Shown here one piece after another: positions 1 through 15,730 of a stretch of DNA of 64,000 bases. Under the pieces are notes generated by a model, which had not been told where the DNA came from, did not search any database, and saw nothing but the letters and a program-made list of their open reading frames with translations. A program made the position numbers and the translations under genes. Source of the DNA: Vicingus serpentipes (lineage in GTDB: Bacteria; Bacteroidota; Bacteroidia; Flavobacteriales_E; Vicingaceae); the NCBI RefSeq assembly GCF_007993035.1, contig NZ_VOOS01000005.1, forward strand, positions 1-64,000. The letters run 5' to 3'. The number at the start of each line of letters is the position of its first letter. Position 1 is the stretch's first letter.

Positions 1-1691
1 TCAGGAAGAACAGTAATAGTACCAGTAGCATTAACTGTCCCACATCCTCCTGTTAAAGGAATAGAATAAGTAAAAACTCCTCCGGTAGTTGGTGTTCCAC
101 TAATCGTAATGGTTCCTCCTGACCAGTTTGCGCTTACACCAGCTGGCAAACCTGTAGCAGCTCCTATTCCAGTAGATCCTGTAGTTGTGTGAGTTATATT
201 GGGATTAATAGTTGCATCAAAACATAAAGAAGGTGAACTAGAAGCAGCACCTACTCCCATATCTGGTAGAATATTAATTGTACCTGAGCCTGAAGCTCCA
301 CAAGGCATGGTGCCTACGCTGTAATTAATTGTATGAATCCCGACAGGTGCAGTAGCGACATTGATTACACCAGTACTCGTATTTAAAGACGCTCCTAATG
401 TTCCAGAAGAATATGCTCCTCCTGCCGTACCAACTAATGTTGGGTTAACTGAACCTCCAGTAGATTTACAAATTGTAGAATAAGACAAACTTGTAAATGA
501 ATAAGGATTAGTAACTGTAATCGTTTTAGTTAAAGAATCATTACAACCTCCTAAATTCCAATAGTAAGTAAAATCATAAGTTCCTGGCCCAGAAATTACC
601 GGATCAAAATATGCATAACCTGCATCATTAGCTCCAACAGAACCTCCAGGAGCATTAGTAGCCCAAGTAGCATTACCAGAAGGAGAATAAGGCCCCAAAC
701 GAGTACACCCATTTCCTGATGCATCAGTACCATTATCAAATATTACTCCTGTCCCTCCATCGTAAATATAGTAATCAACACTAGTTTCATCACATATTTC
801 AACATAATAATCAGTAGTTGGACTTAAATGATCTCCATAAACAGTTAAAACTGTTCCATTAGTTAATGGCCCATTATAAATTAATGTTCCTGAACCTAAA
901 GCTCCAGTTCCTCCTGAATATATTGAAACATAATCATTAGCATCATTTGTAGGTGTAAATTCAAAATGAAGTGCAGGTGTAATATAACCACCAGCTGTAG
1001 CAGAATCATTTGCTACTAAATAGATAAAATCATCTTCACAATTCATTGAAGATGGAAAAGGACTAATAGTATTGTAAGGAGATACGCTTTCTTCAGCATG
1101 AAAATCAACTGTTCCACAACTTGGTGGAAAAACAATACTACAATTAGTAGCGCCAGAACCTCCAGTTTGAGAAAACGAAATTGTACCTTGATCATCAGAA
1201 TAATTTGTAATTAACATTAAATACACATCTCCTACTTGAGCTCCTGTAATATTTGCTGTTTCGGTAGGATCTGGAGCAAAACTACAATCCACAATTTGAT
1301 TAGGATCGGCAGCAGTAGAAGCATTACCATGATCTCCACAATAACTAATGGCTTCAGGCAAATTAGCATAAGGTCCATACAAAATAAAATCTACATCCAG
1401 ACCTCCTCCTGTATTATCAAATTGCTCAATAAAAATATCAATATTTCCTGCAGTACTAACTTCCATATAATACCAGGCTGGATTAGGCTGATCTGATAAA
1501 CAACCATAATTATTCCCAGGGTCTAAGGTTGAAGCTTCGGATGAACCATAAGTATTAGGGAAAGTATAGGTAGTTCCCGTACAAAAAGGATCTGCATCAA
1601 CACAATAAGTGCCCTGAGCATAAGTAGTTGAATTAAATACATTTACCAATATAAAAAAAGTAAATGCTAATAAGTGGTATATTTTTCTCAT
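1..1691 (-). CDS. Large secreted repeat protein, 5' part only (runs off window)
   Basis: The reading frame opens at the ATG at 1691 and stays open to the window edge (563 codons), so the C-terminus is missing. It begins with a signal peptide (MRKIYHLLAF..., ending near TTYAQ). A Cys-containing domain common at the N-terminus of large Bacteroidota surface proteins follows (TYCVDADPFCTGTTY). Gly/Ser/Thr-rich beta-type segments come next. Near the edge begins an Ig-like repeat of the type found in Flavobacteriales adhesins (motif NITHTTTGSTGIGAATGLPA, then ISGTPTTGG). Function is probably surface adhesion or gliding, with a T9SS sorting domain expected beyond the edge; that part is inference. 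The gene lies 28 bases after the 130-residue secreted protein on the same strand. Confidence 0.85.
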   Translation of the reverse strand, partial: MRKIYHLLAFTFFILVNVFNSTTYAQGTYCVDADPFCTGTTYTFPNTYGSSEASTLDPGNNYGCLSDQPNPAWYYMEVSTAGNIDIFIEQFDNTGGGLDVDFILYGPYANLPEAISYCGDHGNASTAADPNQIVDCSFAPDPTETANITGAQVGDVYLMLITNYSDDQGTISFSQTGGSGATNCSIVFPPSCGTVDFHAEESVSPYNTISPFPSSMNCEDDFIYLVANDSATAGGYITPALHFEFTPTNDANDYVSIYSGGTGALGSGTLIYNGPLTNGTVLTVYGDHLSPTTDYYVEICDETSVDYYIYDGGTGVIFDNGTDASGNGCTRLGPYSPSGNATWATNAPGGSVGANDAGYAYFDPVISGPGTYDFTYYWNLGGCNDSLTKTITVTNPYSFTSLSYSTICKSTGGSVNPTLVGTAGGAYSSGTLGASLNTSTGVINVATAPVGIHTINYSVGTMPCGASGSGTINILPDMGVGAASSSPSLCFDATINPNITHTTTGSTGIGAATGLPAGVSANWSGGTITISGTPTTGGVFTYSIPLTGGCGTVNATGTITVLP

Positions 1692-1719
1692 AATTTTATG
1701 ATTTACAGAGGATCGCATT

Positions 1720-2112
1720 TTATTGAGCTGCTTCAGCTCTATATTTTTCTTTTATTTTGTCTAAATTATTTTTTGACCAAGTTTTCATTATTTGAATATA
1801 TTGATCTTCAGATTGCCCTTTTATATGCTTAGGAAAACCATCAGGAATTTGACCTGTAACCGATTTTTCCATAATTTTTTTAGTAAATGTTAAGTATTTA
1901 CCTTCTCCGACAACAATTCCTCCATTAACACTTTTTGATTGGGCATTACTACTCTTTAAAATAGGTCTTGTAGAAGTAGTTATTCGAGGCGATTGCCTAT
2001 CTATATGCGTGGGTTTAATTACTTTTTTTTCTTGTTTACTGGTTGTTTGCGCATTTACAGTTGCAGAAAAACTGATAAAGAAAATGGATGCAATAGTAAA
2101 AGTTAATTTCAT
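1720..2112 (-). CDS. Small secreted protein of unknown function
   Basis: This 130-residue protein has a clear signal peptide (MKLTFTIASIFFISFSATVN, cleavage near AQ). The mature part is basic and rich in Lys, Thr and Ser, and I recognise no domain in it. It lies just upstream of, and on the same strand as, the large secreted repeat protein, so the two may be co-transcribed. A 16-bp exact tandem duplication lies immediately before its start codon. Function is unknown; export to the periplasm or beyond is the only supported statement. Confidence 0.7.
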   Translation of the reverse strand: MKLTFTIASIFFISFSATVNAQTTSKQEKKVIKPTHIDRQSPRITTSTRPILKSSNAQSKSVNGGIVVGEGKYLTFTKKIMEKSVTGQIPDGFPKHIKGQSEDQYIQIMKTWSKNNLDKIKEKYRAEAAQ

Positions 2113-2351: not shown

Positions 2352-4346
2352 CTATTTACAATATTTTAAATATTCTTGATAGATATTCTGCTTTCCTAAT
2401 CGATTACTTAGGACCAAAATATGATTGCACAACTGGATATCTGAGTTATCTTCTTGATATGCCTTAACAAAGTAATCTAAAGCAACATCGTAATAACCAT
2501 CGCCTAATGAAGAATATAAATTACCAATATTAACATATATGAATTTAGGCCTAACAGATTCTTCAGCTAAATCATTTAAAAGTTCAATTCCTTCAATTGT
2601 TTTATTATTCTTGGTTAAAACACTATTGAGTAAATCGTAAACATTTAAATAATCTGGTTTAATTTCTATTATTTTTTTAATATTAGTTATGGAGGCATCG
2701 TAATTTCCAATTGCATTGTAAGAAAAGGCTAAATTAAAATACGCTTCAACATAGTTAGAATTATAAATCAATGCTTTTTCACAATATTTTATAGCCGATG
2801 AATAGTCTCGTTTAAAATTTAAATAAACAGATCCTAAATTATTTAAGCTTGTGTAATAAGTTGTATCAATTCTAACTGCTTCTTTGTAATGATAAATAAG
2901 TTTTTGAACATCTTTACCCAATGATGGGTTTCCAGGGTTTTTCTTAAATTCTCTCGCAACTTGTGTATAATATGTGTTTGCAATTAGAGCATGAGCCTTT
3001 GCAGATTCAGAGACATAATCAATATCATGTTCATACAAAGTTAAATAATCATGCCAATCAGGATTTCTTGCAATTGTTCTCCCTGAATAAAACAATCCTA
3101 TTACTAAAATAGTCCATAAAAACTTAGTAGGAATTTTATGATTGTGGTTTTTTATTTCTGAAAAATCTAACTTTAAAATTTTTGAAATCCCCCATACCAA
3201 AACAATACAAAATCCTAATGATAACATATAAGTAAATCTATCTGCAACTATTCCAGGTAAGAGTATCAATGAATTATTTACCCCCATCATCACTCCTAAA
3301 CATATTAATATTCCCAGACCTAAATATTCTCTTTTAAGAAATGAATATAAGCCATAAAACCCACCTCCTAATGTTATAAATAAAGAAACCCATACTTGCC
3401 AAAATGACCATGTTGCTATTGGTATTTGATTATATCCGTAATAAAAGGCCATGTCTTTAGGAAAAATTAAACTCTTAAAATAAAACCAATTACAGTATAA
3501 ACTAGATGAAATTCTTTTCATAGACCATGGTTCATGCATTAATGGATGCTCAAAATATTTAAATAATCTTAATTGATTTTCTCCATCTACTAGCATTTTT
3601 TGAGTAATTTTTATAGCCACAAAAAAAACAAGGATTGAAATAATGGATATGGTGAAGTATTTTTTTTGAGCCTTTATAAAATATAAGGTCATAGGTACTA
3701 GTGGAGCAATAATCATTGCTGTATTTTTAGTAAACAATGCTATAATCATACATAACAATGCATAGACTAAATAACGAATTTCTGCTTGTTGTGTATATTT
3801 TATAAAATTGTTTATGGATAGCAATACCATAAAAAAAACGATAATTTCATCCCTGTTTTTTATACTACTAACTACTTCCGTATGCAAAGGATGTAACATA
3901 AATAGTAGGGTAATAGCTAAAGGCACTATAATAGATTGTTCGTATAAGATTTTTTGTAAAACAATTAAAAGAATAACCCCTGTTAATGCATAAAGAAGTA
4001 CGTTTACAAAGTGGCTAATATTAGCTTGTGTTAACTTATCTTTTTTCTTTTTTTGCTCTTTTGTTTGGAAAGGAGGTAATTTATTAAAAAATTGTTTTTC
4101 TATTGCAAATGAAGCAATTACAACTGGCCTATAATCATATGACTGTTTATCATCAGTTGAATATCTTGAAGTGAAAATTTCAGGAAGTGCAGCGATTCCA
4201 CCTTCTACCAATTTATTTCCATCAACAACAATATTATCATCTAATGCATACTCATTATTAATTGAATTCCCATAGATTACAAAAACTAAAATAGTAAATA
4301 AAATATAAATCTTTCGAATAGTAAATGTGGATAAATTTAGTTTCAT
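2352..4346 (-). CDS. TMTC-like GT-C membrane glycosyltransferase with C-terminal TPRs
   Basis: The 664-residue protein has a multi-spanning N-terminal half (about residues 12-420) and a C-terminal TPR array (about 440-660; motifs such as AYFNLAFSYNAIGNYDASI and SLNNLGSVYLNF). The early lumenal loop carries an acidic pair (ALDDN, D36-D37) and a DYRPV motif (71-75). This matches the layout of TMTC/GT-C glycosyltransferases, which transfer a sugar from a polyprenyl-phosphate donor on the outer face of the membrane. It is the last gene of the minus-strand glycan or lipid tailoring block. The GT2 enzyme encoded at 11776-12720 could supply its lipid-linked sugar donor (inference). Acceptor unknown. 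Confidence 0.75.
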   Translation of the reverse strand: MKLNLSTFTIRKIYILFTILVFVIYGNSINNEYALDDNIVVDGNKLVEGGIAALPEIFTSRYSTDDKQSYDYRPVVIASFAIEKQFFNKLPPFQTKEQKKKKDKLTQANISHFVNVLLYALTGVILLIVLQKILYEQSIIVPLAITLLFMLHPLHTEVVSSIKNRDEIIVFFMVLLSINNFIKYTQQAEIRYLVYALLCMIIALFTKNTAMIIAPLVPMTLYFIKAQKKYFTISIISILVFFVAIKITQKMLVDGENQLRLFKYFEHPLMHEPWSMKRISSSLYCNWFYFKSLIFPKDMAFYYGYNQIPIATWSFWQVWVSLFITLGGGFYGLYSFLKREYLGLGILICLGVMMGVNNSLILLPGIVADRFTYMLSLGFCIVLVWGISKILKLDFSEIKNHNHKIPTKFLWTILVIGLFYSGRTIARNPDWHDYLTLYEHDIDYVSESAKAHALIANTYYTQVAREFKKNPGNPSLGKDVQKLIYHYKEAVRIDTTYYTSLNNLGSVYLNFKRDYSSAIKYCEKALIYNSNYVEAYFNLAFSYNAIGNYDASITNIKKIIEIKPDYLNVYDLLNSVLTKNNKTIEGIELLNDLAEESVRPKFIYVNIGNLYSSLGDGYYDVALDYFVKAYQEDNSDIQLCNHILVLSNRLGKQNIYQEYLKYCK

Positions 4347-4366
4347 TTTAGGTAAAAGTATAAATT

Positions 4367-5305
4367 CTATTTTTCATTAAATTCTTTATTAATTTTGTTT
4401 TTTAAGACTGTTGTAAAATCAGTTTTCCCATCTTCATTCATATGATGGGAGTCAAAAAAATAATCATATCTATCTAAATATTGGCCTTCAAAATCCCAAA
4501 TAGGAATATTATATTCTAATAAGATTTTATCTTGAGGTGGATTACTCAGCATATTTTCTCCACAAAACTGTTTAAGAGTATTTAAATAATAATCGGTTAC
4601 AGGATATTTAATCCCTATAACTTTTATTTGATGAGATTGGCATAGTTCAATGGTCTTTCTAAAAAAGATTAAAGCATCTTCATAATATAGGTTTTTTGGA
4701 TTGTTAGATAATAACTTGTGCTTAATAAATAGCTCTGTATTAATTTGCTTTTGTATTGAAGAAAAGTCAGAAAATTTCTGTTTACCTTTTTTGATTTTAA
4801 CCATATTATTTTTTTTTAATACAGTTTTTAGTTCTATATATGGAAAAATAAGATATGCTATAGACTTTAAATATCTTTCATGATTAATTATTTCAGCATC
4901 TAAAAGTTCTTTGTAGTCTATATATTTTCCATAAAAAAAATAATTTTCGTTACGATTAAAATAGTCCGCAGAAAACCTAGTAATGTCAGCTTGTAAAAAA
5001 ATGTATTTAGGTTTTATATGTAACCGTTCAAGTAAATATTTTAATCGAAAATGAGTAAGAATTGGGTTTTCACCATAAAATGATAGGTTAAATGAATTTT
5101 TTATATTTCGTTCTTCAATACACCTATTTGGATGAGAGTCTCCTGTAAATAAGAACTTTGGAGCTTCTTTTAGACTTTCAATTTTTTTTTGATCTTTAAC
5201 TAAAGCGCTTGTTTCTGATGTGATTATAAAAAACACAACTAACAATACTAAATGAAGGAGCAAAAATGTGATTACAAAAACTTTTATTTTACGTCTGTTA
5301 GTCAT
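4367..5305 (-). CDS. Membrane-anchored SGNH/DltD-like acyl-transfer partner
   Basis: The 312-residue protein has one N-terminal membrane helix (about 8-28) and an extracytoplasmic domain. A TGDSH block (residues 54-58, candidate nucleophile S57) near the start and a DSHHM block near the end (candidate D285 and H288) fit the Ser and Asp-x-x-His blocks of SGNH hydrolases. Such proteins often follow MBOAT genes and act as the second enzyme in O-acyl transfer to extracellular glycans, as DltD or AlgX/AlgJ do. Its start codon overlaps the stop of the MBOAT gene by one base (TAATG), indicating translational coupling. The exact acyl group and acceptor are not visible from sequence. Confidence 0.72.
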   Translation of the reverse strand: MTNRRKIKVFVITFLLLHLVLLVVFFIITSETSALVKDQKKIESLKEAPKFLFTGDSHPNRCIEERNIKNSFNLSFYGENPILTHFRLKYLLERLHIKPKYIFLQADITRFSADYFNRNENYFFYGKYIDYKELLDAEIINHERYLKSIAYLIFPYIELKTVLKKNNMVKIKKGKQKFSDFSSIQKQINTELFIKHKLLSNNPKNLYYEDALIFFRKTIELCQSHQIKVIGIKYPVTDYYLNTLKQFCGENMLSNPPQDKILLEYNIPIWDFEGQYLDRYDYFFDSHHMNEDGKTDFTTVLKNKINKEFNEK

Positions 5306-6738
5306 TAAAATCTAAAGTAATAAAAATTAGCACTTTCATTAACTGAAAAAATTAAAATAGTAAATATTATAACGACATAAAAACTAACTCTAAAGTAGCT
5401 GTTTTTTATGCTGTCAAAAGGATGAAATTTTCCATTTTTTGAGAAATAATTAATACCTTCAGTTATAAAAAAAGTTGCCCCTACAACAATAAATGCATCT
5501 ATCTTGAAATTAAAATCACTAAAAAAATGAAGTAATTTTTTAATAATTATAGAGAGATCATTAAAATCTGTTATTCGAGCAAATATTGCTACAGATAGAA
5601 ATGAAGAAAATGTAACGAATTTAAATATAAATCGAGGAATTAATTTATCATTAGTAAAATTAATTCTATTAAAAAATTTGTAACGTAAATTCTTAGTTGA
5701 TGCATCTATAATCATATAAATACCAGCCATCAGACCAAAAAAGAAAAAATTGTAAGATGCACCATGCCATAATCCAATAACAATAAAAACAAAGAGCACA
5801 TTAAAAAGTGTTTTTAAATTATTGTTTTTTACAACACCTCCCATAGGAATGAAAAGATAGTTTTTAACCCAAATAGATAAAGTAGCGTGCCATCTTCGCC
5901 AAAACTCTCTCACATTTATTGATGAAAAAGGTTTAAAAAAGTTTTGACTTAATTCAACTCCAAAATATCTTGCAGAACCCAAAGCAATATCACAATAAGC
6001 AGAAAAGTCTATGTAAACATAGTAGGCAAAACCAACAATTGCAAGATAAACTTCGAATCCTTTAGTTTCAGGTGAATCTAATCGCTTAAAAACATTATCC
6101 ACAAAAATTACCAGACTATCTGCAATAACTATCTTTTTAAAAAAACCTAAAAGAATTAATTTACTTCCTTCAGAAAAATTGATCCAGCTTAAAGTTACTT
6201 TATTTTTAAATTGGGGAATTAAAAACCCAGGAGATTCTATTGGCCCAGCAACTAATTGAGGAAAAAATGATATATAAAGAGCAAAATGCCCTAAATGAGT
6301 TTCTCTCTTTATTCTTTCCTTATACACATCAACAATATAACTAACACCCTGAAAAGTATAAAAAGAAATACCAATAGGTAATATTAGGCTTCTAAAAGAC
6401 CAATTGATTGTATTTTTATTTGGTGTAAACAATGTTATTGTATCACTTAGAACTTGATAAAACCACTCAAAATATTTAAAAAACAATAGATGAGAGAGTA
6501 CTAAAACTACACTTAAAGTAAGAATCGTTTTGGATTTTTTGTTATTAAGTATGAATCCTGTAAAATAGGCTATTAATGTTATACTGCACATTAATAACAA
6601 AAACGTAGGTTCAGAAAAACCATAAAAAAAGTAACTAGCTAATAATAATAATGTCCACCGATATTTATGATTGATTGAATAATATGCAAATACAACTAAA
6701 GGCAAAAATAATATGTACCATATGGTATTAAACCCCAT
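5305..6738 (-). CDS. MBOAT family O-acyltransferase (AlgI/DltB-like)
   Basis: The 477-residue polytopic membrane protein shows the typical AlgI/DltB signatures: PIGISFYTFQGVSYIVDVY (121-139), FWRRWHATLSIW with H284, and the catalytic His block GLWHGASYN with H325. These enzymes carry an acyl group across the membrane for O-acylation of exported polysaccharides or lipids. Length and topology are normal for the family. Its 5' end overlaps the preceding sulfotransferase gene by 11 bases, and its 3' end abuts the SGNH partner, so the three are one transcription unit. Together they suggest that a single surface molecule is both sulfated and O-acylated (inference). Confidence 0.93.
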   Translation of the reverse strand: MGFNTIWYILFLPLVVFAYYSINHKYRWTLLLLASYFFYGFSEPTFLLLMCSITLIAYFTGFILNNKKSKTILTLSVVLVLSHLLFFKYFEWFYQVLSDTITLFTPNKNTINWSFRSLILPIGISFYTFQGVSYIVDVYKERIKRETHLGHFALYISFFPQLVAGPIESPGFLIPQFKNKVTLSWINFSEGSKLILLGFFKKIVIADSLVIFVDNVFKRLDSPETKGFEVYLAIVGFAYYVYIDFSAYCDIALGSARYFGVELSQNFFKPFSSINVREFWRRWHATLSIWVKNYLFIPMGGVVKNNNLKTLFNVLFVFIVIGLWHGASYNFFFFGLMAGIYMIIDASTKNLRYKFFNRINFTNDKLIPRFIFKFVTFSSFLSVAIFARITDFNDLSIIIKKLLHFFSDFNFKIDAFIVVGATFFITEGINYFSKNGKFHPFDSIKNSYFRVSFYVVIIFTILIFSVNESANFYYFRF

Positions 6739-7774
6739 ATTTACTTTTAAAAATATTTTTTTTCAATTTATACGGAAGATTATAATAAGAACAATAATAT
6801 ATTGCAACAGAAAGTCTGAATAAAGGGTAAATTGTTATAATTCTAAGATAAGCCCAAATTTCTTCTACTAAAGTAGCTTTTGAAAAGCTCAAGTAATCAA
6901 ACTCTTTCGCGGTTTTAGAACAAATGGTTTCTATTAAAATTAAATCTAGTGCAGAAAATTTATTTTCCCAATAATTAATTCTTTCATTATTTAAAGGCAT
7001 TTTTAGTCGATTATGCATCTCAATTATTTTGTCTTTTGCTGCTTGAGGTAAGTCTGCTTTTTCAAACTTTTTCATAACTGAATTCTCATGGTTATGCAGC
7101 ATTTGTTCATCAAAAGCAATATTTAAAAAGTCTGTAATTTTATTCAATGTTTCTTTTGGTTTATTTACAATGTTTTCATACTTGACTCTCGTAAACTTAT
7201 TGGGGAATTTTTGTTCATATTTTAGTATTGATTTATAATACAAGTTCCATGAAGCAGCATAAGAAACCATAAGCTTACTTATTGTACCTTCTGTGTGGGT
7301 TCTTCTTGATACTATGTTATCTCTATAATCGCGTGTTAATATTATAAATTTTGCATCAGGAAAAAGTGTAATTAAATTCTTAACATAAAGACTATAAACG
7401 GGATTCTTATCAACAAATACTTTTATTAGATTTTTATCTTTAGCTAAATTATTATTGAGGTAAACCTCCTTACAAAGATCTTGATAACTAATGTGGGGTT
7501 CATTTAAATCATATTTTTCCAAAAAGCTTAAATCTGGCTTCCAAATGCTTTGTGTATGGTTATGATTTAATTTAAAAAGCGTTTTAAATTCAGTAATTAA
7601 TTTGTTGCCAGAAAGGGATGAAAGGTCTTTCCCAAATAATATGAAATTATTTTCGGGAGCAGCCGAAATGGATGGATTGCCGTTCAACATATCAGTAAGT
7701 AATGTTGTTCCCGACCTTCCTATTCCAACAATAAAGCAGGGAGTAATATCTAAGTTATTTTTTTTTTGTTCCAT
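6728..7774 (-). CDS. PAPS-dependent sulfotransferase family protein
   Basis: The 348-residue protein begins with the 5'-phosphosulfate-binding loop GIGRSGTTLL (17-26) and has the 3'-phosphate-binding motif RDYRDNIVSR (148-157), both diagnostic of the sulfotransferase fold using PAPS. The probable substrate is a carbohydrate or lipid hydroxyl. It resembles the next upstream gene product along its length, including a similar C-terminal region (NERINYWENKF here, TSRLDSWKKNL there), so the pair looks like a tandem duplication. It overlaps that gene by 20 bases and the MBOAT gene by 11. No signal peptide is seen, so it acts in the cytoplasm. Confidence 0.88.
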   Translation of the reverse strand: MEQKKNNLDITPCFIVGIGRSGTTLLTDMLNGNPSISAAPENNFILFGKDLSSLSGNKLITEFKTLFKLNHNHTQSIWKPDLSFLEKYDLNEPHISYQDLCKEVYLNNNLAKDKNLIKVFVDKNPVYSLYVKNLITLFPDAKFIILTRDYRDNIVSRRTHTEGTISKLMVSYAASWNLYYKSILKYEQKFPNKFTRVKYENIVNKPKETLNKITDFLNIAFDEQMLHNHENSVMKKFEKADLPQAAKDKIIEMHNRLKMPLNNERINYWENKFSALDLILIETICSKTAKEFDYLSFSKATLVEEIWAYLRIITIYPLFRLSVAIYYCSYYNLPYKLKKNIFKSKYGV

Positions 7775-8816
7775 TCCTTACTCTTTCGATTCGTTCAATA
7801 TGTTTTTTAAACCTATCTACTTTAAATTTTATAGGCAAATAGAAGGTAGTTTCATCCTTTATTTGTTCAATTAACAAGATATATCTTAAGTGAATTGTTT
7901 TAATGAATAAACTTATTTTTTTTAACACAGCTATATTAGATTGAGGTTTATAGCCAAGCTTTTCACCAAATCCATTGCAAATATAATCACTTAAAATTAG
8001 TTGCTCATAGGCAAGGTTTTTTTTCCAACTATCTAACCTACTTGTGTTTATAGGCTTTATTAAGTCGCCATATTTCTTATTAAGTCGTTCTGAATAATGG
8101 TTTGTTAAATCATCAACTATTGCTTGTTCTTCACTCATCTGCAAGTGGCTTTTCGAATATTTTTCTATCCTTAAAAAGGAAAATATTCGGTCTAATGTAT
8201 GTTCAGGATGGCTTACTAATTCTTCGTATTTTATTCTTAACACTTGATTTTGATGTTGTTTTTCAAACTTTAAGGCTTTATTCGTAAAATAATTCCATCG
8301 TATGGCATTATAAACTACCGAAGGAGGTCGTATATGTATACTTTCTATTCTTGATAAAATATTTGCACGATAATCTCGGGTAATAAATATAAATTTTGCA
8401 TTAGGGTTTAATTTTAATAATTTTTCGCAATAAAGTGTGTTAGAAGGATTTTTATCTATAATTATTGGTGCATTAACAGAATTATTTGTTTTGTGTTTAA
8501 AAAAATTATAGAAATGCTTACAAAGTTCATGGTAACTACCAATAAAAGATTGTTGTAAAAAATCATCTTCTTTAGTTAAAGTATAATCATAACCAATGTA
8601 AGGTTGTAATCTGTTAAATAAAAGATTAAATTCGTGTATAAGCATAAGGTCTGAAGTCTTAAAGCAAGTTTTGTTTTTAAATGAATTATAAAAGAAAGTA
8701 ACGAAATAATTTTCTGGCACAGTATTAATTGCAGGGTGAGCACCTAAAATAGAAGTTAGTAATGTAGTACCAGAGCGACCAATCCCTATAATATAATTAA
8801 CTTCTACAATATCCAT
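7755..8816 (-). CDS. PAPS-dependent sulfotransferase family protein (paralogue)
   Basis: The 353-residue protein has the PAPS-binding loop GIGRSGTTLL (11-20) and the 3'-phosphate motif RDYRANILSR (147-156). A DKNPSNTLYCEKLL segment matches DKNPVYSLYVKNLI in its downstream neighbour. It is the first of two tandem sulfotransferases, each of which may sulfate a different position or substrate. A gap of 77 bases separates it from the hydroxylase gene upstream, so it may begin a transcription unit or be read through from there. Cytoplasmic; acceptor unknown. Confidence 0.88.
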   Translation of the reverse strand: MDIVEVNYIIGIGRSGTTLLTSILGAHPAINTVPENYFVTFFYNSFKNKTCFKTSDLMLIHEFNLLFNRLQPYIGYDYTLTKEDDFLQQSFIGSYHELCKHFYNFFKHKTNNSVNAPIIIDKNPSNTLYCEKLLKLNPNAKFIFITRDYRANILSRIESIHIRPPSVVYNAIRWNYFTNKALKFEKQHQNQVLRIKYEELVSHPEHTLDRIFSFLRIEKYSKSHLQMSEEQAIVDDLTNHYSERLNKKYGDLIKPINTSRLDSWKKNLAYEQLILSDYICNGFGEKLGYKPQSNIAVLKKISLFIKTIHLRYILLIEQIKDETTFYLPIKFKVDRFKKHIERIERVRNGTKKK

Positions 8817-8893
8817 TCTATTTTAAGTAAGATAGTTGAATTTTAGCTGAAAGGTAATAATTATTGACGATATTGCTATTTTCAACAATCAAA

Positions 8894-9640
8894 TCATTCT
8901 TTTATAAAAGAATGTATTCTAGTAAACACATAAACAGGTATGGCAAAAGTATTCATCATCCATTTTCTCATAAAAGCTGGAACATGGTACAGTATTGCTG
9001 TTTTCTGTAATGTATATTGAATTATAAGGGAAGCTAACATTTGTGCTGAAATCCATTTGGTTTTATGTTGGAATTCTGGTCTGATAATGTCTAATATTAA
9101 AACTATTCTTTTTTCGTTAGTGTTATTCCAAGCTAAATGAAGATGAGCATCACAAAAAGCAAATGGGATACCTTCATGCCATGATACTTCATTATCAAGT
9201 ACTTTAAATCCGCAGTCAGGTAATTTTGCTGGAACTAAAAGCGGTAAATGAACTCTATACATTGCATTTGAATCTCCTGTATGAGGTTTTAATTGAGTTT
9301 GTTTACTAAGCTGACTAAAAGATGCAGAAACTAAATAGGGTATCTGTTTGATTATTTTGGTGGTAATCGGAAATTTTTTTTGATTCTTTTTATAATTCAA
9401 CAACCAAAATTTAAAAGGCAGTATTTTCCAATTAGTAGGTTGATTTGCAAATGTTTTATTGTAATAAGGAATGAATTTTTCTTCGTCAGCGGTTGATAAT
9501 TCTTTTTGAATTGACAAATAATTGTCTTTTAAAAGTTTATACCAGCTAGTATATTCAATATCAAAAAAAGGAGGTTCGCTACCACTATAAGCACCATTTG
9601 AAGAAAAAGAAAACCATATTTTATTTAAGTCAGTATTCAA
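8894..9640 (-). CDS. Aspartyl/asparaginyl beta-hydroxylase-domain oxygenase (LpxO/AspH-like)
   Basis: The 248-residue protein carries the PF05118-type Fe(II)/2-oxoglutarate core: PHTGDSN with first iron ligand H120, DAHLHLAWN with second ligand H168, and R178 in NEKRIVL, the expected 2-oxoglutarate anchor. The C-terminus is hydrophobic and basic, suggesting membrane association as in LpxO, a family member that hydroxylates lipid A acyl chains. Substrate is not known; context with KAS III, ACP and sulfotransferase genes favours an acyl chain or glycolipid over a protein (inference). Its start overlaps the upstream paralogue by 4 bases. Confidence 0.82.
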   Translation of the reverse strand: MNTDLNKIWFSFSSNGAYSGSEPPFFDIEYTSWYKLLKDNYLSIQKELSTADEEKFIPYYNKTFANQPTNWKILPFKFWLLNYKKNQKKFPITTKIIKQIPYLVSASFSQLSKQTQLKPHTGDSNAMYRVHLPLLVPAKLPDCGFKVLDNEVSWHEGIPFAFCDAHLHLAWNNTNEKRIVLILDIIRPEFQHKTKWISAQMLASLIIQYTLQKTAILYHVPAFMRKWMMNTFAIPVYVFTRIHSFIKE

Positions 9641-10437
9641 TTATGTTTTTTTATAACACCATGTTTTTTTTGATATGGATAGAGTAAAAATAGCAAAATA
9701 AATATGGTTGAATTAATTATTTTATGTATCCATTTAGGCATTTTTTTTATGAAAGAATATTGTTCAAATAATAATTGTAAAATTAGAAAAGAGCGTATTT
9801 TTAAGCAAATAGCTTTTTTTTTATATTTATATTCACTTCTAATTACATCAAAAACAACAATTACTCTTTTTTTATCAGACAAATTCCACGCCTCGTGTTT
9901 ATTGGCGTCATTAAAAATTAATAGTTGGTTGTTTTTCCATTCAGCATCTTGGTTATTTACTCTAAAACCACATTTTGGCAAACCTTCTGGAATATCTATT
10001 CCTAAATGACATCTGTAAAAAGTATTTGAATCTCCGTGATGAGCTTTAATTTTTTCTCCAGCTTCTAAAATATTAATCGATATGGATACAATTTCAGGAA
10101 ATTGAGCTAAAGAATTATTAAAAACAGGAGTTAATGTTAGCGCTTTATTAATTCTTATCCCCCAAGTTATAAAGCTAAATGTTTTCCAGCCAGATTTCTC
10201 TGTTAATCCTTTAATAAAATAACCTTTAGGAGTAAAATCTTCAGAGTTGATTATTCGAGTTATTTCTGTAGCTATCTCATCTGAGTTAGCCTCTATAGCT
10301 TTTGCCCAGTCAAAACATTCAGAAGAATAAAAATTAGGTGAATCTGAATAGTGTTCAGACGAAAAATAAGCAAACCATTCTTCTTTTAATTGTTCCAAAA
10401 TAATTACATTTAATCTTGAATTTGGTATAAGAATCAA
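9637..10437 (-). CDS. Aspartyl/asparaginyl beta-hydroxylase-domain oxygenase, second copy
   Basis: The 266-residue protein has AHHGDSN (iron ligand H134), NDANKHEAWN (second ligand H181) and R191 in KKRVIVV, so all visible PF05118 catalytic residues are present. The C-terminal 50 residues contain a strongly hydrophobic stretch (STIFILLFLLYPY) followed by basic residues, consistent with a membrane anchor. It forms a coupled pair with the downstream paralogue (4-base overlap) and is divergent from the third copy across a 68-base gap. Probable role is hydroxylation of an acyl chain or small molecule in the adjoining pathway (inference). Confidence 0.82.
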   Translation of the reverse strand: MILIPNSRLNVIILEQLKEEWFAYFSSEHYSDSPNFYSSECFDWAKAIEANSDEIATEITRIINSEDFTPKGYFIKGLTEKSGWKTFSFITWGIRINKALTLTPVFNNSLAQFPEIVSISINILEAGEKIKAHHGDSNTFYRCHLGIDIPEGLPKCGFRVNNQDAEWKNNQLLIFNDANKHEAWNLSDKKRVIVVFDVIRSEYKYKKKAICLKIRSFLILQLLFEQYSFIKKMPKWIHKIINSTIFILLFLLYPYQKKHGVIKKHN

Positions 10438-10505
10438 ATTTATAATAATTAATTAAGATTATAGCATATTTAGTGGTAAATCAATTATTAAATAGGTGAT
10501 TAACT

Positions 10506-11168
10506 ATGGAGAATCAAGCATCAAATTTTCATCATGACTTTTTTGAGTGGACAAAGTTATTGGAGTTAAATTGGAAAATTATAAAAGATGAGTTAATGCA
10601 TGTATATTCCAATCATGATCAACTACTTTATAAAAGTAATTGGTTTTTAGCTCACCCTCATTATGTCGATTCAAAAACAAATAAAGCCTGGAAGACTTAT
10701 GAATTTGTTTTTTTTGGAATCAAGCAATTAGGTCATTGCCAGAATTGTCCTAAAACATTTGAATTACTAGAAAAAATACCAAATTTAGTTACTGCTCAAT
10801 TTTCTGTATTAGAGCCACATACTAAAGTATCTCCTCATAAGGGGTTTACTAAAATGGTATTACGAAATCATTTGGCTCTAGAAGTGCCTTCTTTAACACT
10901 ATGCAAAATTAAAGTTGAAGATGAAGAAACTTCATGGAAAGAGGGAAAAGTTATCACCTTTGATGATAGTAAAATACATGAAGCTTGGAATTTATCAGAT
11001 AAACCAAGAATGGTATTAATGATAGATGTAGCCAACCCGTCTATGCCTTATTCTTCAGAAGAAATTTGCAATTATAAAATTGAGAATATAGATGATCCTT
11101 TTTTATTAAGCATGGCAAATAAATCAACATGGAAAAAATGGTTGAGCCAAGGGTATTTTGATAGTTAA
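10506..11168 (+). CDS. Aspartyl/asparaginyl beta-hydroxylase-domain oxygenase, third copy
   Basis: This 220-residue protein is the only plus-strand gene within the tailoring block. It has the core SPHKGFTK (H111), DDSKIHEAWN (H158) and KPRMVLM (R168), equivalent to the two His iron ligands and the Arg of PF05118. Unlike the two neighbouring copies it lacks the hydrophobic C-terminal tail, so it is probably soluble and may act on a different substrate or at another step. It is transcribed divergently from the second copy and converges on the GNAT gene, overlapping that gene's 3' end by 4 bases. Confidence 0.82.
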   Translation: MENQASNFHHDFFEWTKLLELNWKIIKDELMHVYSNHDQLLYKSNWFLAHPHYVDSKTNKAWKTYEFVFFGIKQLGHCQNCPKTFELLEKIPNLVTAQFSVLEPHTKVSPHKGFTKMVLRNHLALEVPSLTLCKIKVEDEETSWKEGKVITFDDSKIHEAWNLSDKPRMVLMIDVANPSMPYSSEEICNYKIENIDDPFLLSMANKSTWKKWLSQGYFDS

Positions 11169-11779
11169 AGTAATGCATTTATCTTTTCTATATTAGCTTC
11201 GCTTTTTTCTCCAACAATAGAAAAAGAACCATCCGTTTCGGTATAGTTCTTTGCTGCCAACCTAAGTTTTTGAGCATTTTTGTTATAACTCTCTTTTGTC
11301 AGAATATACCATTGGTTTTTTGATTTTTCTTGACCTGGAATTAATACATAGCCTAACATTTTGTTATATTTAATGGCTTTAGTGTTTTCTGGTAAAATTC
11401 TAACAAATGATTTGTCACCAATTTTTAATTCATTAAAAATAAAATCCAATAAAATTAGTGACGCAAAAATTGGGTAAGGAGTATTTAAAAAATCATCATC
11501 CCATATAAAAATTCCACCCTCTCCATATTCTTCATTTATATTAACATCTTTACAATTAATTACACCAATTGGTTTATCGTTAATGATAATTAAAAAATAA
11601 TAATTAAATCTATTGTTAACTTTTTTAAACCACTCAATTTGTTCTTTTTCAGAAATCTTTTTTTTATAACCCATATACTTTCTAATATTTGGGTGATTAC
11701 GCCATTTACGAATTAACTCAATGTCGTTTTTATTAATTCTTTTAAGAGAAATTCCATATTGATTTAATGTGAAAATCAT
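11165..11779 (-). CDS. GNAT family N-acyltransferase (RimJ/RimL-like)
   Basis: The 204-residue protein has a GNAT fold signature: an N-terminal ISLKRINKNDIELIRKWRNH segment, a central beta-strand region (YYFLIIINDKPIGVINCKDV) and a C-terminal NTKAIKYNKMLGY helix typical of RimJ/RimL members. These enzymes move an acyl group from acyl-CoA or acyl-ACP to an amine. Its position as the last gene of the KAS III/ACP/SDR/GT2 operon (start overlaps the GT2 gene by 4 bases) suggests that it attaches the acyl group made by that operon to an amino sugar (inference). The extension after about residue 165 is not recognisable. Confidence 0.78.
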   Translation of the reverse strand: MIFTLNQYGISLKRINKNDIELIRKWRNHPNIRKYMGYKKKISEKEQIEWFKKVNNRFNYYFLIIINDKPIGVINCKDVNINEEYGEGGIFIWDDDFLNTPYPIFASLILLDFIFNELKIGDKSFVRILPENTKAIKYNKMLGYVLIPGQEKSKNQWYILTKESYNKNAQKLRLAAKNYTETDGSFSIVGEKSEANIEKINALL

Positions 11780-12720
11780 ATTTCTTCACCAATTGAGTAT
11801 ACTGGTCGATTATTCATTAGTTGAAACATTTTACTAAGATATTCGCCTAACACGCCAAGTATAAAAATAATAAGACCTGATGAAAATAAAATACTAACAA
11901 TTATTGATGTGTATCCAGGAACAGCTATTCCTTGTATTATTTTTCTTGAAAGATAGAAAAACCCTATCCCAAAATTGACAAATGAAAAAAAGAATCCAAA
12001 ATATTTAATCATTTTTAATGGGAATAATGATGAATACAAAACAACATCGTTAGTTAGTCTAATTAAGCTAATTAATGAATAATTAGATTTAGATCTTTTG
12101 CTTTTATTGTGTTTTACATCAACATAAACTATAGCATTGGTATACCATAAAAAGACTTCATCTATAAAAATGAGATGAGTTGCTTCTGTAGCTATTTTTT
12201 TTGCTAATTGTGTATTAATTAACCGAAAGCTTGAGCCTTTTACACTTCCACTCCCTTCAATTATTTTTGCAATTGTTTGATAAATTAATTTGAATAATTT
12301 TCGAATTAAGGAACGCTCAATATTAGAGTAGATGCCATATACAATTTCGGCTTTGCTTTTAATTTGTTCTTCAATTAACAATTGAATTTGTTGCGGGTTA
12401 ACTTCTAAATCATCATCTATTGTGATAATGAATTTTCCTGATGACTTAATAAAACCAGCACAAGTGGCGATATGTTGTCCGAAATTTTTACTTAACCTTA
12501 AGCCTTTAACAAATAGCGCATGTTCCTTTTTTAAATTTATTATTTTTGCCCAAGAACCATCTTTACTGTAATCATCAACAAAAATCAATTCAAAAGTATA
12601 TTCCAAAGGCCCAAAAAAAGAAATCAACTTATCACAAAGTTCCTCTATACTCCCTTCACCATTATATACTGGTATTATAACAGAATAATCTATTTTATGC
12701 TCCTGCAGTAAGTCCTCCAT
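11776..12720 (-). CDS. GT2 glycosyltransferase, polyprenyl-phosphate sugar synthase type
   Basis: The 314-residue protein has an N-terminal GT-A domain (YSVIIPVYNGEGS at 12-24; metal-binding DDD at 102-104 in TIDDDLEVNP). Two C-terminal membrane helices (about 225-295) and a FILGVLGEYLSKM block follow, the layout of GtrB/DPM1/ArnC-type enzymes that make polyprenyl-phosphate sugars. Such donors are used by GT-C enzymes on the outer membrane face, so the protein at 2352-4346 is a natural partner (inference). It overlaps the SDR gene by 26 bases and the GNAT gene by 4, indicating tight co-expression. Confidence 0.88.
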   Translation of the reverse strand: MEDLLQEHKIDYSVIIPVYNGEGSIEELCDKLISFFGPLEYTFELIFVDDYSKDGSWAKIINLKKEHALFVKGLRLSKNFGQHIATCAGFIKSSGKFIITIDDDLEVNPQQIQLLIEEQIKSKAEIVYGIYSNIERSLIRKLFKLIYQTIAKIIEGSGSVKGSSFRLINTQLAKKIATEATHLIFIDEVFLWYTNAIVYVDVKHNKSKRSKSNYSLISLIRLTNDVVLYSSLFPLKMIKYFGFFFSFVNFGIGFFYLSRKIIQGIAVPGYTSIIVSILFSSGLIIFILGVLGEYLSKMFQLMNNRPVYSIGEEI

Positions 12721-13441
12721 CTAAAGTAATTTCAGTTCCTGTTATCCACTTAGAAGCGTTAGATAATAAAAAGAAAATTGCATTTGCAACATCTAATGGC
12801 TCTCCAACACCTAAAGGGTATTTTTCTATATGATAATCATAAATTTCTTTCTCTACATTTTCTCTTGTATCCTCTAATATTTTTGTTTCAACCAACCCTG
12901 CTTTTATGCAATTAGATCTTATCTTTTTGGAAGCCAACTCAATACTTAATGTCTTGCTATAAGTCTCCAATGCAGCTTTTGAGGAAGTGTAAATTGCCCC
13001 CCCTTTATATGGGTAGCTACTTGATATTGAAGAGACAAAAACCATTGAAGACCCGTTGTTTATTCTTTTTGACCGCAACAATGATGAAACTAGATATACT
13101 GCGCCATCGAATATTGGCATTCTAACTAAATCAACATGCTTCTTATTGATAAATTGAACAGGATACAAACTAACTATTCCTGGCAAATAAACTACACCAT
13201 CAACTTTCTCTATCTTGTCTGAGGCAGATTTGATTTCATATTCATTTGTAACATCTAACTCAAGATATTTTACATTTTCAGACAATCCTAGATCAGTTTT
13301 TAACTTTTTCACATCTCGAGATGTTAACGTTAATTTAGCTTTTTTTTCAAAGCATAATTTTACCAGCTCTAAACCTATTCCTGATGAAGCTCCAATAATC
13401 AGTATATGCTTACCTTCTAATAAAAAATTATTCATCTTCAT
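12695..13441 (-). CDS. Short-chain dehydrogenase/reductase (FabG-like)
   Basis: The 248-residue classical SDR has the NAD(P) motif GASSGIG (17-23), SSISSS before the active site and the catalytic YTSSK (Y151, K155). The C-terminal WITGTEITLDGGLTAGA is the standard FabG/SDR ending. In an operon with two ketosynthases and an ACP, the obvious role is reducing a 3-ketoacyl-ACP intermediate to the 3-hydroxyacyl form (inference); sugar reduction is an alternative. It overlaps the KAS III gene by 14 bases and the GT2 gene by 26. Confidence 0.9.
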   Translation of the reverse strand: MKMNNFLLEGKHILIIGASSGIGLELVKLCFEKKAKLTLTSRDVKKLKTDLGLSENVKYLELDVTNEYEIKSASDKIEKVDGVVYLPGIVSLYPVQFINKKHVDLVRMPIFDGAVYLVSSLLRSKRINNGSSMVFVSSISSSYPYKGGAIYTSSKAALETYSKTLSIELASKKIRSNCIKAGLVETKILEDTRENVEKEIYDYHIEKYPLGVGEPLDVANAIFFLLSNASKWITGTEITLDGGLTAGA

Positions 13442-14483
13442 AATTATTTAAAAGTAAGTATTCTATTGGATTATTTTCAATAATTGCATTTGCCCAAGAT
13501 AATCCTACACCAAACCCTGAAATCAATAATGATACTTCTTTATTCAACCCCTTCATTGTTGTCATAGTTAAAGGTATTGACGCAGAACTTGTATTTCCAT
13601 AATCTTTTAAAGAATAAGGAGTTATTTCTTTATCAAACTTTAACTTTTTTCTAATGGTTTCATTCATTAACAGGTTAGCTTGATGCATAATAAAATAATC
13701 AAAACTCTCTGTTGTTTTTGAGTTTAAATTCAAAAAACTTAAAATAGCTTTAGGCACAGTAGTTACTGAAAAATTAAAAATATCCAATCCATTTAATGCC
13801 AAATTAAATCCATTACGAAAAATACCTCCTGAATATTCTTTTTCCAAAAATGATTCTAAACTAGGTAAATTCCTAACTCCTCCATCGTATATTTTTATAG
13901 CATCTTCTCCAGAGCCATCTGAATTTAAGTCAAAAATCCAATTATTAGTTCCTTCTGTATTTTCTATAAAAGTTGCAGTACCTGCATCTCCAAAAAGAGG
14001 ATAGGCACTTTTATCTTTGTAATTACAAGAAACAGTTGAAACATCTCCAGCCAACAAAATTCCCTTCTTTAAACCACCTGCCTTCATCATTGAAGTAATA
14101 ATTGACAAACCATACACATAACCTGAACAACCCAGCCCTACATCAAAAGCAATACAAGAAACAGGTAATTTTAGTTTGTTTTGACTAACAACTGCAGTTG
14201 AAGGCAAATAATAATCTCTAGACTGTGTAATAAAAACAAGTATTTCTATTTCATTCCTTTTCCACTTTAATTTATCAAATAATTTATTAGCTGCCTGAAT
14301 TGCAAGGTCTGAAGTTGTCACTCCAGTTTTTGCAACTCTTCTTTTTTCAATACCAGTAGTTTTTATTAACATTTTACGCTCCGACATAGTCAATAATTCA
14401 TAATCTAAATTAGAGAGTTCATGTTCAGGAACAACAGAACTAACACCTCTAATTTGAAATCCTTGAATATTAATTTGAGCCAT
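13428..14483 (-). CDS. KAS III-type 3-oxoacyl-ACP synthase (FabH-like), copy 2
   Basis: The 351-residue thiolase-fold protein has an intact Cys-His-Asn triad: C119 (GLGCSGYV), H267 (IMHQAN) and N297 (YGNTSSAS). KAS III enzymes condense an acyl-CoA primer with malonyl-ACP. It is clearly related to, but diverged from, the KAS III two genes upstream, so the pair may catalyse successive or different condensations. It overlaps the ACP gene by 14 bases. Dedicated FabH-like enzymes in such operons usually make a specialised short acyl group, not bulk fatty acids (inference). Confidence 0.9.
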   Translation of the reverse strand: MAQINIQGFQIRGVSSVVPEHELSNLDYELLTMSERKMLIKTTGIEKRRVAKTGVTTSDLAIQAANKLFDKLKWKRNEIEILVFITQSRDYYLPSTAVVSQNKLKLPVSCIAFDVGLGCSGYVYGLSIITSMMKAGGLKKGILLAGDVSTVSCNYKDKSAYPLFGDAGTATFIENTEGTNNWIFDLNSDGSGEDAIKIYDGGVRNLPSLESFLEKEYSGGIFRNGFNLALNGLDIFNFSVTTVPKAILSFLNLNSKTTESFDYFIMHQANLLMNETIRKKLKFDKEITPYSLKDYGNTSSASIPLTMTTMKGLNKEVSLLISGFGVGLSWANAIIENNPIEYLLLNNYEDE

Positions 14484-14724
14484 TCTTCTTCTTTTCTTGA
14501 ATCACATTAAAAATATCTTGAATAGTAAAAATAGTTTTTAAGTCTGCACCAGAAATCGCAACATCATACTCCGTATCTATCAATGCAATAATAACTAATG
14601 CGTGCATAGAACTCCACCATTCAACATCTCGTATACTAGTCTCAGGTGTTAAACTTCCATTCTCAACTTCATCTAACTCATTTTCTAGTTTTTTTATTAA
14701 ATCTTGTATACCCATAAATTTCAA
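14470..14724 (-). CDS. Acyl carrier protein
   Basis: The 84-residue protein folds like an ACP: an N-terminal amphipathic helix, the WWSSMHALV segment carrying the predicted phosphopantetheine serine (S39, before M40), then the hydrophobic IIALIDTEYDV helix and the DLKTIFTIQDIFNVI ending. The usual Asp before the modified Ser is replaced by Ser, seen in specialised ACPs. An alternative start is M4. It sits between the two KAS III genes and overlaps the second by 14 bases, so it is the probable carrier for the acyl chain built here. Confidence 0.85.
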   Translation of the reverse strand: MKFMGIQDLIKKLENELDEVENGSLTPETSIRDVEWWSSMHALVIIALIDTEYDVAISGADLKTIFTIQDIFNVIQEKKKNGSN

Positions 14725-14728
14725 ATTT

Positions 14729-15730
14729 TTAATACTTTAAAACGGTTCCACTCCAAGAAAATCCAATCCCAAAACCAGCTACGAGAACCTTACTGCCTAT
14801 TTTTATACGTCCTTCTCTTTCTGCCTTCTTTAAAGCTAAAGGTATTGAAACCGAAACCGTATTGCCATTATCTTCTATATAATAAGCCATTTTTTCATCA
14901 GAAACCTTTAGCTTTTTTTGTATAGACTTTAAAATAATATTACTCGCTTGATGAAAAACAAATAAATCAATGTCTTCAAAATTTAATTTGTTTTTTTCTA
15001 AAATAGCATTAACTAACAAAGGAACTTCTTTTAATGAAAAAGAAAAAACTTCCAATCCATTCATTTTCATCTGTCCTCTTGGCATTCCTCCCACGTCAGC
15101 ATTTTCTTCAAGCCAATCAGCATTTGGTGGATTTCGCAAACAACTATGATCAACAAACAAGTGTTTTGCTCCAGATCCATCAACACCATAAACAAAGTTA
15201 CCTAATTGATTTGAATCAGTTTTTTCTACCCATACTGCTGCTCCAGCATCACTAAACAATGCTCTAAGAGGGAAATCATTGGGATGTGAAACTAATCCAG
15301 GGGTATCACCAAATAAAAGTAAAACATTGTCTGACTGACCACTTTCAACAATGGCTTTTGCCATTCCTAAAGCATTCGTAAAACCCGAACAACCAGCTGG
15401 CAAATCAAGTGCTCCAATATTATTGTTTAATCCTAACTTGTCTTGCAATATACAAGCGGTCATTGGAGCAATATAATCCAGTCCCTCGGTACAAAATAAA
15501 AGAAATTGAACATCTGCTTTTTTGTAATCAGAATTATTAAACAAATCTTCAGCAGCTAAAAATGCTAAATCTGAACCTATTATATTTTTTTCAGTATTAA
15601 ATCGAGTCTTTACACCTATTTTTTTATAGATTTCATCTTCACTGTAATTTGGAAAAGCAAATGACAAATCTTTGTTTGTTACTTTTAGCGAAGACAAATG
15701 ATATTCTATATGCTTAATAGTGCAGCCCAT
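14729..15730 (-). CDS. KAS III-type 3-oxoacyl-ACP synthase (FabH-like), copy 1
   Basis: The 333-residue protein has the Cys-His-Asn triad C114 (PAGCSGF), H260 (VFHQAS) and N290 (DNGNTVS), and the C-terminal VAGFGIGFSWSGT block typical of FabH-like enzymes. It is the first gene of a tight minus-strand operon (KAS III, ACP, KAS III, SDR, GT2, GNAT) whose members overlap or are separated by 4 bases. It is transcribed divergently from the uvrD/pcrA gene across a 149-base gap. The presumed role is priming synthesis of a specialised acyl group on the adjacent ACP (inference). Confidence 0.9.
   Translation of the reverse strand: MGCTIKHIEYHLSSLKVTNKDLSFAFPNYSEDEIYKKIGVKTRFNTEKNIIGSDLAFLAAEDLFNNSDYKKADVQFLLFCTEGLDYIAPMTACILQDKLGLNNNIGALDLPAGCSGFTNALGMAKAIVESGQSDNVLLLFGDTPGLVSHPNDFPLRALFSDAGAAVWVEKTDSNQLGNFVYGVDGSGAKHLFVDHSCLRNPPNADWLEENADVGGMPRGQMKMNGLEVFSFSLKEVPLLVNAILEKNKLNFEDIDLFVFHQASNIILKSIQKKLKVSDEKMAYYIEDNGNTVSVSIPLALKKAEREGRIKIGSKVLVAGFGIGFSWSGTVLKY

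Follow-up and report, generated by a model that had tools for sequence, protein, structure and literature searches.

The system described closest to the locus treated here, a block of 14 genes at positions 2352-15730 of a 64,000-nucleotide stretch of Vicingus serpentipes DNA (hereafter the window), is the viosamine island of Pseudomonas. This island comprises vioA, vioM, vioT, vioS, vioB, vioR and acp in Pseudomonas syringae, with orfA-E in P. aeruginosa PAK, and it is proposed to yield a dTDP-4-N-(3-hydroxybutanoyl)-amino sugar (PMC3927599). Like the island, the Vicingus block encodes together a ketoacyl synthase III (KAS III), an acyl carrier protein (ACP, recognized here by weak profile matches and position), a 3-oxoacyl-ACP reductase and a sugar N-acyltransferase. 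The island keeps its acyl module beside a 4-amino-sugar pathway, whereas the block is devoid of a dTDP-4-amino-sugar transaminase; a WecE-like gene, not VioA-like, lies elsewhere in the genome. The block also differs in having two KAS III enzymes, in apparently using a GT2/GT-C pair and a lipid carrier where the island uses the large VioT, and in adding oxygenases, sulfotransferases and an MBOAT/SGNH pair; it has no known flagellin target.

Individual parts of the block resemble other characterized systems. As in ArnC/ArnT and GtrB/GtrC, the GT2 enzyme is predicted to load polyprenyl phosphate with a sugar that a GT-C enzyme uses outside the cell. The block departs from those systems in the tetratricopeptide repeats (TPR) and TMTC motifs of its GT-C protein and in the predicted acylation of the sugar through an ACP route of its own; no GtrA or ArnEF was identified for the block (no search aimed at GtrA was made). 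The protein O-mannosyltransferases of the TMTC type share the combination of GT-C and TPR as well as DD, YRP, HPLHTEV and DRF motifs, and the candidate acceptors are likewise Ig-like beta-sandwich repeat proteins. The block's GT-C is, however, bacterial, scores under the Pfam TMTC cut-off and has a polyprenyl-linked acyl-aminosugar as its predicted donor rather than dolichyl phosphate mannose. LpxO and OlsC share the PF05118 family and its histidine/arginine motif with the block's oxygenases, which fall far under the cut-offs of both and whose predicted substrate is an acyl-sugar intermediate. Clusters with NeuD/PglB/VioB-type sugar N-acyltransferases (L153-L157 and L097 of Parabacteroides) hold the same acyl module beside the N-acyltransferase, in some cases with a 4-aminotransferase, but these are polysaccharide clusters with a phospho-sugar transferase in place of GT2/GT-C. 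No account of this block was found in the literature searched, in which subscription papers were mostly out of reach. The sequence-only reading of the window had proposed an undescribed pathway; because related acyl modules are known, the idea of such a pathway is not wholly undescribed (viosamine island, PMC3927599).

The block is one functional unit and its grouping is not a matter of chance. From the observed gene content, co-occurrence, catalytic residues, GT-C fold class and segment exchange, we infer the chemical steps and the sequence in which they occur, as well as the sugar and the acceptor, of a pathway that probably makes an N-acylated 4-amino-4,6-dideoxyhexose, hydroxylated and sulfated in the cytoplasm, and transfers it to a surface acceptor. 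KAS III-1, KAS III-2, the ACP and a short-chain dehydrogenase/reductase (SDR) would assemble, on the dedicated ACP, a short acyl chain of the 3-hydroxy or 3-oxo type, while RmlB and the WecE-like transaminase, encoded outside the block, would provide a dTDP-4-amino-4,6-dideoxysugar. The GNAT enzyme would transfer the acyl group from the ACP to the 4-amino group of this sugar, and the GT2 enzyme would attach the acyl-sugar to polyprenyl phosphate. In the cytoplasm, the PF05118 oxygenases would hydroxylate, probably on the acyl part, and the sulfotransferases would sulfate hydroxyls. After flipping, an external acceptor would receive the sugar from the TMTC-like GT-C/TPR enzyme, and periplasmic O-acylation of the product would fall to the MBOAT/SGNH pair. 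GT-C and the core are conserved, and the tailoring genes form an exchangeable segment that would alter the surface epitope. Fatty-acid-type chemistry, hydroxylation, sulfation and lipid-carrier glycosylation would thereby be joined in one recurring, apparently undescribed Bacteroidota pathway.

Conservation of the cassette, defined as a KAS III-2 orthologue with adjacent GNAT/GT2, was assessed in 100 related genomes, with 40 neighbourhoods fetched. It was found in 32 genomes from about ten families. The order KAS III-1, ACP, KAS III-2, SDR, GT2/GNAT is near-invariant in 26 fetched loci, all of which contain the SDR, and homologues of the GT-C, sulfotransferase and PF05118 genes lie within the fetched flanks of 18, 20 and 15 of these, respectively. 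Barring contig-cut or distant cases, the SDR was seen in fetched loci only alongside KAS III-1. A GT-C orthologue is encoded by 22 of the 32 cassette genomes versus 2 of the 68 others (p=1.9e-12; Fisher test over the 100 relatives, kinship ignored, as in the two comparisons that follow). The corresponding counts are 20/32 versus 5/68 for a strong PF05118 match (p=1e-8) and 29/32 versus 22/68 for the WecE-like transaminase (p=2.5e-8). These links stay significant (p<=0.012) both within and outside the organism's own family, again without tree correction, with p=0.00058 and p=0.00022 for the WecE-like gene and p=1.4e-6 and p=0.012 for PF05118. The three PF05118 genes of the block are the only ones in its own genome (G000). 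The entire 14-gene set is collinear in G006 and G019, divided over two contigs in G032, present in G040 with the sulfotransferase-MBOAT-SGNH part inverted, and mostly present, on cut contigs, in G045. The two halves (15730-11165 and 10437-2352) therefore co-occur, contrary to the condition that the sequence-only reading had named as refuting it. In one locus (L043, genome G008), KAS III-1, ACP and KAS III-2 stand directly behind a GT-C gene and the SDR, GT2 and GNAT genes are not nearby.

The Cys, His and Asn triad is invariant in alignments of both KAS III paralogue sets. The GNAT protein has PseH (1.8e-9) and FdhC (8.9e-8) as its closest structure relatives, the latter described as a 3-hydroxybutanoyl transferase acting on Fuc3N (PMC4869667). 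The earlier proposal, in which an acyl group made on a dedicated ACP is handed to an amino sugar by the GNAT, is supported. A WecE-like gene for a dTDP-4-amino-4,6-dideoxygalactose transaminase, located on contig C1 of the same genome, passes the PRK11706 equivalog (472.4 versus 375 bits), and the genome's RmlB passes TIGR01181 (473 versus 365 bits). WecE-like genes of the same equivalog directly adjoin KAS III-1 in L056 and L060. The sugar is accordingly predicted by sequence likeness to be a dTDP-4-amino-4,6-dideoxyhexose, and the acyl group to be short and 3-oxo or 3-hydroxy. The sequence-only reading had remarked that Wzx, Wzy and nucleotide-sugar genes are missing; this holds for the block, where the open reading frame (ORF) list and profiles yield no Wzx, Wzy or polymerase among the 14 genes, but the sugar-nucleotide step is encoded elsewhere, by the RmlB gene and the cassette-linked WecE-like gene. 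In distant Bacteroidota, NeuD/PglB/VioB-type sugar N-acyltransferases adjoin KAS III-2/ACP/SDR, and some of these clusters contain LegC-type 4-aminotransferases. The acyl module thus keeps company with amino-sugar N-acylation across contexts.

Loading by GT2 and use by GT-C outside the cell, as first proposed, are in keeping with the sequence likeness of GT2 to GtrB/ArnC and with the modelled fold of the GT-C protein. The GT2 enzyme, whose structural relatives by sequence are GtrB and ArnC, scores under the ArnC equivalog cut-off PRK10714 (117 versus 529 bits). In the GT-C protein, D36-D37 in the first external loop are invariant among 16 sequences and are accompanied by YRP, HPLHTEV and DRF motifs and a C-terminal TPR region. 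The motifs described for TMTC are DD, SYRP and ERxxY (PMC7801869), to which those of the GT-C protein correspond. Because the TPR repeats swamped both the PDB profile search and the full-length fold search, the membrane domain was folded by itself. The resulting model (pTM 0.84) indicates a GT-C fold, with STT3, PglB and PMT4 as its best PDB matches (Foldseek probability 0.99-1.00). The enzyme may therefore work in a TMTC-like manner, though it lies under the TMTC cut-off and is not classed as one.

The earlier suggestion that the oxygenases and sulfotransferases act in tailoring is likewise supported. All three oxygenases pass the Pfam cut-off for PF05118 (112-149 versus 22.6 bits) and retain, by eye, the H...R-H and H...R residues. 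Both sulfotransferases pass Pfam (100.6 and 109.1 versus 27 bits) and carry a GRSGTT 5'-phosphosulfate-binding loop for 3'-phosphoadenosine 5'-phosphosulfate (PAPS); an adenosine 5'-phosphosulfate kinase is encoded in the genome. The MBOAT/SGNH pair would act in the periplasm, as AlgI/DltB-type pairs do. Several other loci (L045, L046 and L047 among them) have Cupin_8/JmjC-type, PhyH or P450 oxygenases beside or replacing PF05118, and sulfotransferases of families PF03567 and PF00685.

These tailoring genes have a history distinct from that of their neighbours. Compared with G006, identity at four-fold degenerate sites is 0.63-0.83 for GT2, GNAT, the three oxygenases and both sulfotransferases, versus 0.46 for KAS III-1, 0.33 for KAS III-2, 0.51 for the SDR, 0.44 for GT-C and 0.41 for uvrD, which adjoins the block in the window and lies elsewhere in G006. 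G019 and G032 show a like pattern (GNAT 0.57 in G032), the overall ranges being 0.54-0.83 for the tailoring segment versus 0.33-0.57 for flanking genes and uvrD. Nucleotide identity is 0.71-0.94 across about 4.4-12.5 kb, peaking at 0.94; outside this stretch it is 0.58-0.65 toward GT-C and 0.67-0.77 toward the KAS/SDR genes. Most simply read, the core and GT-C diverged vertically, like uvrD, whereas the tailoring genes passed between genera in a recent exchange. By analogy, this exchange would resemble O-antigen-like surface variation, and the locus provides a natural example of modules being exchanged in surface chemistry, in which the makers at both ends are conserved and the decorators between them exchangeable.

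As a possible acceptor, the sequence-only reading had suggested a glycolipid or an existing glycan, an assignment that is not established, a protein being at least equally likely. We give T9SS (type IX secretion system)-secreted PKD/Ig-domain surface proteins close to an even chance of being the acceptor, and lipopolysaccharide (LPS) or a surface glycan a considerable chance, somewhat short of even. In two genera, genes for T9SS PKD/CHU_C proteins share the strand of KAS III-1 and are found about 100-120 bases upstream of it; in several others they adjoin a GT-C gene, and in G117 an Ig_7-repeat protein adjoins GT-C. Each genome encodes 34-53 type-B T9SS proteins, so that adjacency alone is a weak lead and not proof. 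Individual loci with type-B (PKD/CHU_C) genes next to KAS III-1 or the TMTC-like GT-C are L032, L033, L036, L048, L050, L054-L056, L105, L107-L109, L116 and L131, and a second GT-C/adhesin pair occurs within the same run in G006 and G019. A conserved secreted protein of 165-170 residues with no Pfam match (L032:19377-19889 and L056_14) accompanies the T9SS adhesin by the block. A more specific version, held only tentatively, is that of bacterial TMTC-like protein O-glycosylation, in which T9SS PKD/Ig-type adhesins receive a 4-amino sugar that has been acylated, hydroxylated and sulfated, and the tailoring genes, swapped between genera, vary the epitope. Bacteria may have here a TMTC-like transferase that acts on protein acceptors, and the prediction is specific enough for glycoproteomic testing.

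The foremost alternative, possible yet well below even odds, is decoration of O-antigen or LPS, with GT-C adding the lipid-linked acyl-amino sugar to O-polysaccharide or core in the manner of Gtr side-branching or ArnT modification of lipid A. The GtrB/ArnC likeness of GT2 and the serotype-like segment exchange fit such a role, and MBOAT/SGNH pairs are common in polysaccharide acylation. Of 9 loci with a smaller form of the cassette (KAS III-2, ACP, GT2 and GNAT, without KAS III-1), 6 have Wzm/Wzt-type ABC transporter genes next to it, and a DegT gene or oxygenases of PhyH or P450 type also occur in some smaller-form loci. The full form with KAS III-1 and SDR, to which the window's cassette belongs, however, has adjacent ABC transporter genes in none of 26 loci, and the lack of Wzx, Wzy and polymerase, the protein glycosyltransferases matched by the GT-C fold and the large T9SS proteins adjoining the block in several genera all argue against LPS decoration.

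Several observations weigh against the proposed pathway as a whole. The GNAT scores under the PseH equivalog cut-off TIGR03585 (67.9 versus 93.1 bits), GT-C under the gathering cut-off of Pfam TMTC_DUF1736 (21.1 versus 27 bits), and the PDB fold matches of GT-C reach E-values of 0.003-0.05 only. The oxygenases fall far under the equivalog cut-offs of OlsC (125/106/81 versus 450 bits) and LpxO (86/53/66 versus 500). The WecE-like transaminase is not encoded in the block itself, and a close WecE-like gene is missing from 3 of the 32 cassette genomes, two of which are incomplete. The second KAS III, in a block without dehydratase, has no explained role. No flippase was identified, a GtrA-type protein being absent among the 14 genes, with no dedicated search made. 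The abundance of type-B T9SS proteins and the co-occurrence statistics, which carry no phylogenetic correction, count on the same side.

Tailoring of a membrane lipid into a hydroxylated, sulfated glycolipid, with PF05118 enzymes acting on acyl chains like OlsC/LpxO, is unlikely: although OlsC and LpxO are the nearest NCBIfam models of all three oxygenases, scores of 53-125 bits face cut-offs of 450-500, the block has no acyl-lipid synthase, a PseH/FdhC-type GNAT with GT2/GT-C is unfit for a simple lipid, and sister loci use other oxygenase families (Cupin_8, PhyH, P450). Two unrelated neighbouring operons, divided between the halves named above, would suit the many core-bearing loci without tailoring genes and the separate recent history of the tailoring segment, but the same gene families rejoin the core in differing orders and in different families of organisms (L032-L035, L060, L067), GT-C is strongly tied to the core, and co-occurrence contradicts this very improbable account. 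Dialkylresorcinols and other pigments of Bacteroidota are primed by KAS III enzymes, but a pigment or polyketide-like secondary metabolite is the least credible product here, given StlD/DarB models at 24-37 bits versus cut-offs of 450-550, no KAS II, aromatase or dehydratase, and a dominance of sugar enzymes. All three of these readings were set aside.

The block lies at the start of contig C5 in a 2.92 Mb genome, and its far side is cut because the window starts where the contig starts. All 14 ORFs of the near-contiguous block reported earlier are at their coordinates; the minus strand carries 13 of them and the plus strand one, and they are packed tightly and operon-like with several overlaps of 4-26 bases. 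Pfam and NCBIfam confirm the families (ACP_syn_III twice, SDR, GT2, GNAT, PF05118 three times, Sulfotransfer_3 twice, MBOAT, and GT-C with TPR and a weak TMTC match). With a score under the Pfam cut-off, the ACP is named through weak NCBIfam matches supported by conserved position; the SGNH-like protein, with zero matches in Pfam and NCBIfam searches, is identified by motifs.

Table 1. Features of the block and its surroundings in the window
Feature	Position	Strand	Basis
KAS III-1 (FabH-like)	14729..15730	-	Profiles; Cys-His-Asn intact
ACP	14470..14724	-	Weak NCBIfam/Pfam; conserved position between KAS III genes; predicted start TTG, internal ATG possible
KAS III-2	13428..14483	-	Profiles; Cys119-His267-Asn297 intact; constant member of all module versions
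SDR, probable 3-oxoacyl-ACP reductase	12695..13441	-	Profiles
GT2 polyprenyl-phosphate sugar transferase, GtrB/ArnC-like	11776..12720	-	Profiles; structure matches sll0501 5.5e-40, ArnC 2e-26
GNAT sugar N-acyltransferase, PseH/FdhC-like	11165..11779	-	Profiles; structure relatives
PF05118 2OG-Fe(II) oxygenase 1	10506..11168	+	1.5e-43
PF05118 oxygenase 2	9637..10437	-	2.9e-32
PF05118 oxygenase 3	8894..9640	-	1.3e-34
PAPS-dependent sulfotransferase 1	7755..8816	-	Pfam; GRSGTT loop
PAPS-dependent sulfotransferase 2	6728..7774	-	Pfam; GRSGTT loop
MBOAT O-acyltransferase, DltB/AlgI-like	5305..6738	-	Profiles; closest NCBIfam DltB
SGNH-like partner of MBOAT	4367..5305	-	GDS and D-S-H-H (D-x-x-H) motifs only
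GT-C glycosyltransferase with periplasmic TPR, TMTC-like	2352..4346	-	Profiles, motifs, fold model
Exchanged tailoring segment (SGNH to most of GT2)	4400..12500		Nucleotide identity; four-fold sites
Small secreted protein	1720..2112	-	No family; homologues adjoin GT-C in L035, L036, L056
Truncated secreted adhesin-like protein, possible acceptor	3..1718	-	At contig end; N-terminus like L055 adhesin

The truncated adhesin-like protein gave no match in a Pfam search; by eye, its N-terminus resembles the T9SS adhesin that adjoins KAS III-1 in L055. Rfam and tRNA scans were empty, and promoter and terminator scans, with no signal above shuffle level, were uninformative. No phage relative of GT2 was found when one was looked for. 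Plasmid matches consist of Parabacteroides and Azospirillum clusters, which give context only and are not orthologous blocks. A single KAS III query for related loci returned one named relative, L031 from Desulfobacteraceae, outside Bacteroidota, where a KAS III-2 orthologue (40%) and a carbamoyltransferase belong to a probable O-antigen cluster. Records of Parabacteroides distasonis (L096, L097) show a related module for making acyl groups in a gut genus: KAS III, ACP, AMP-ligase and SDR inside polysaccharide clusters that also hold an acetyltransferase. Finally, a conserved protein of about 300 residues with no Pfam match (L069_12 and homologues in nine loci) adjoins the GNAT and is possibly an undescribed glycosyltransferase.

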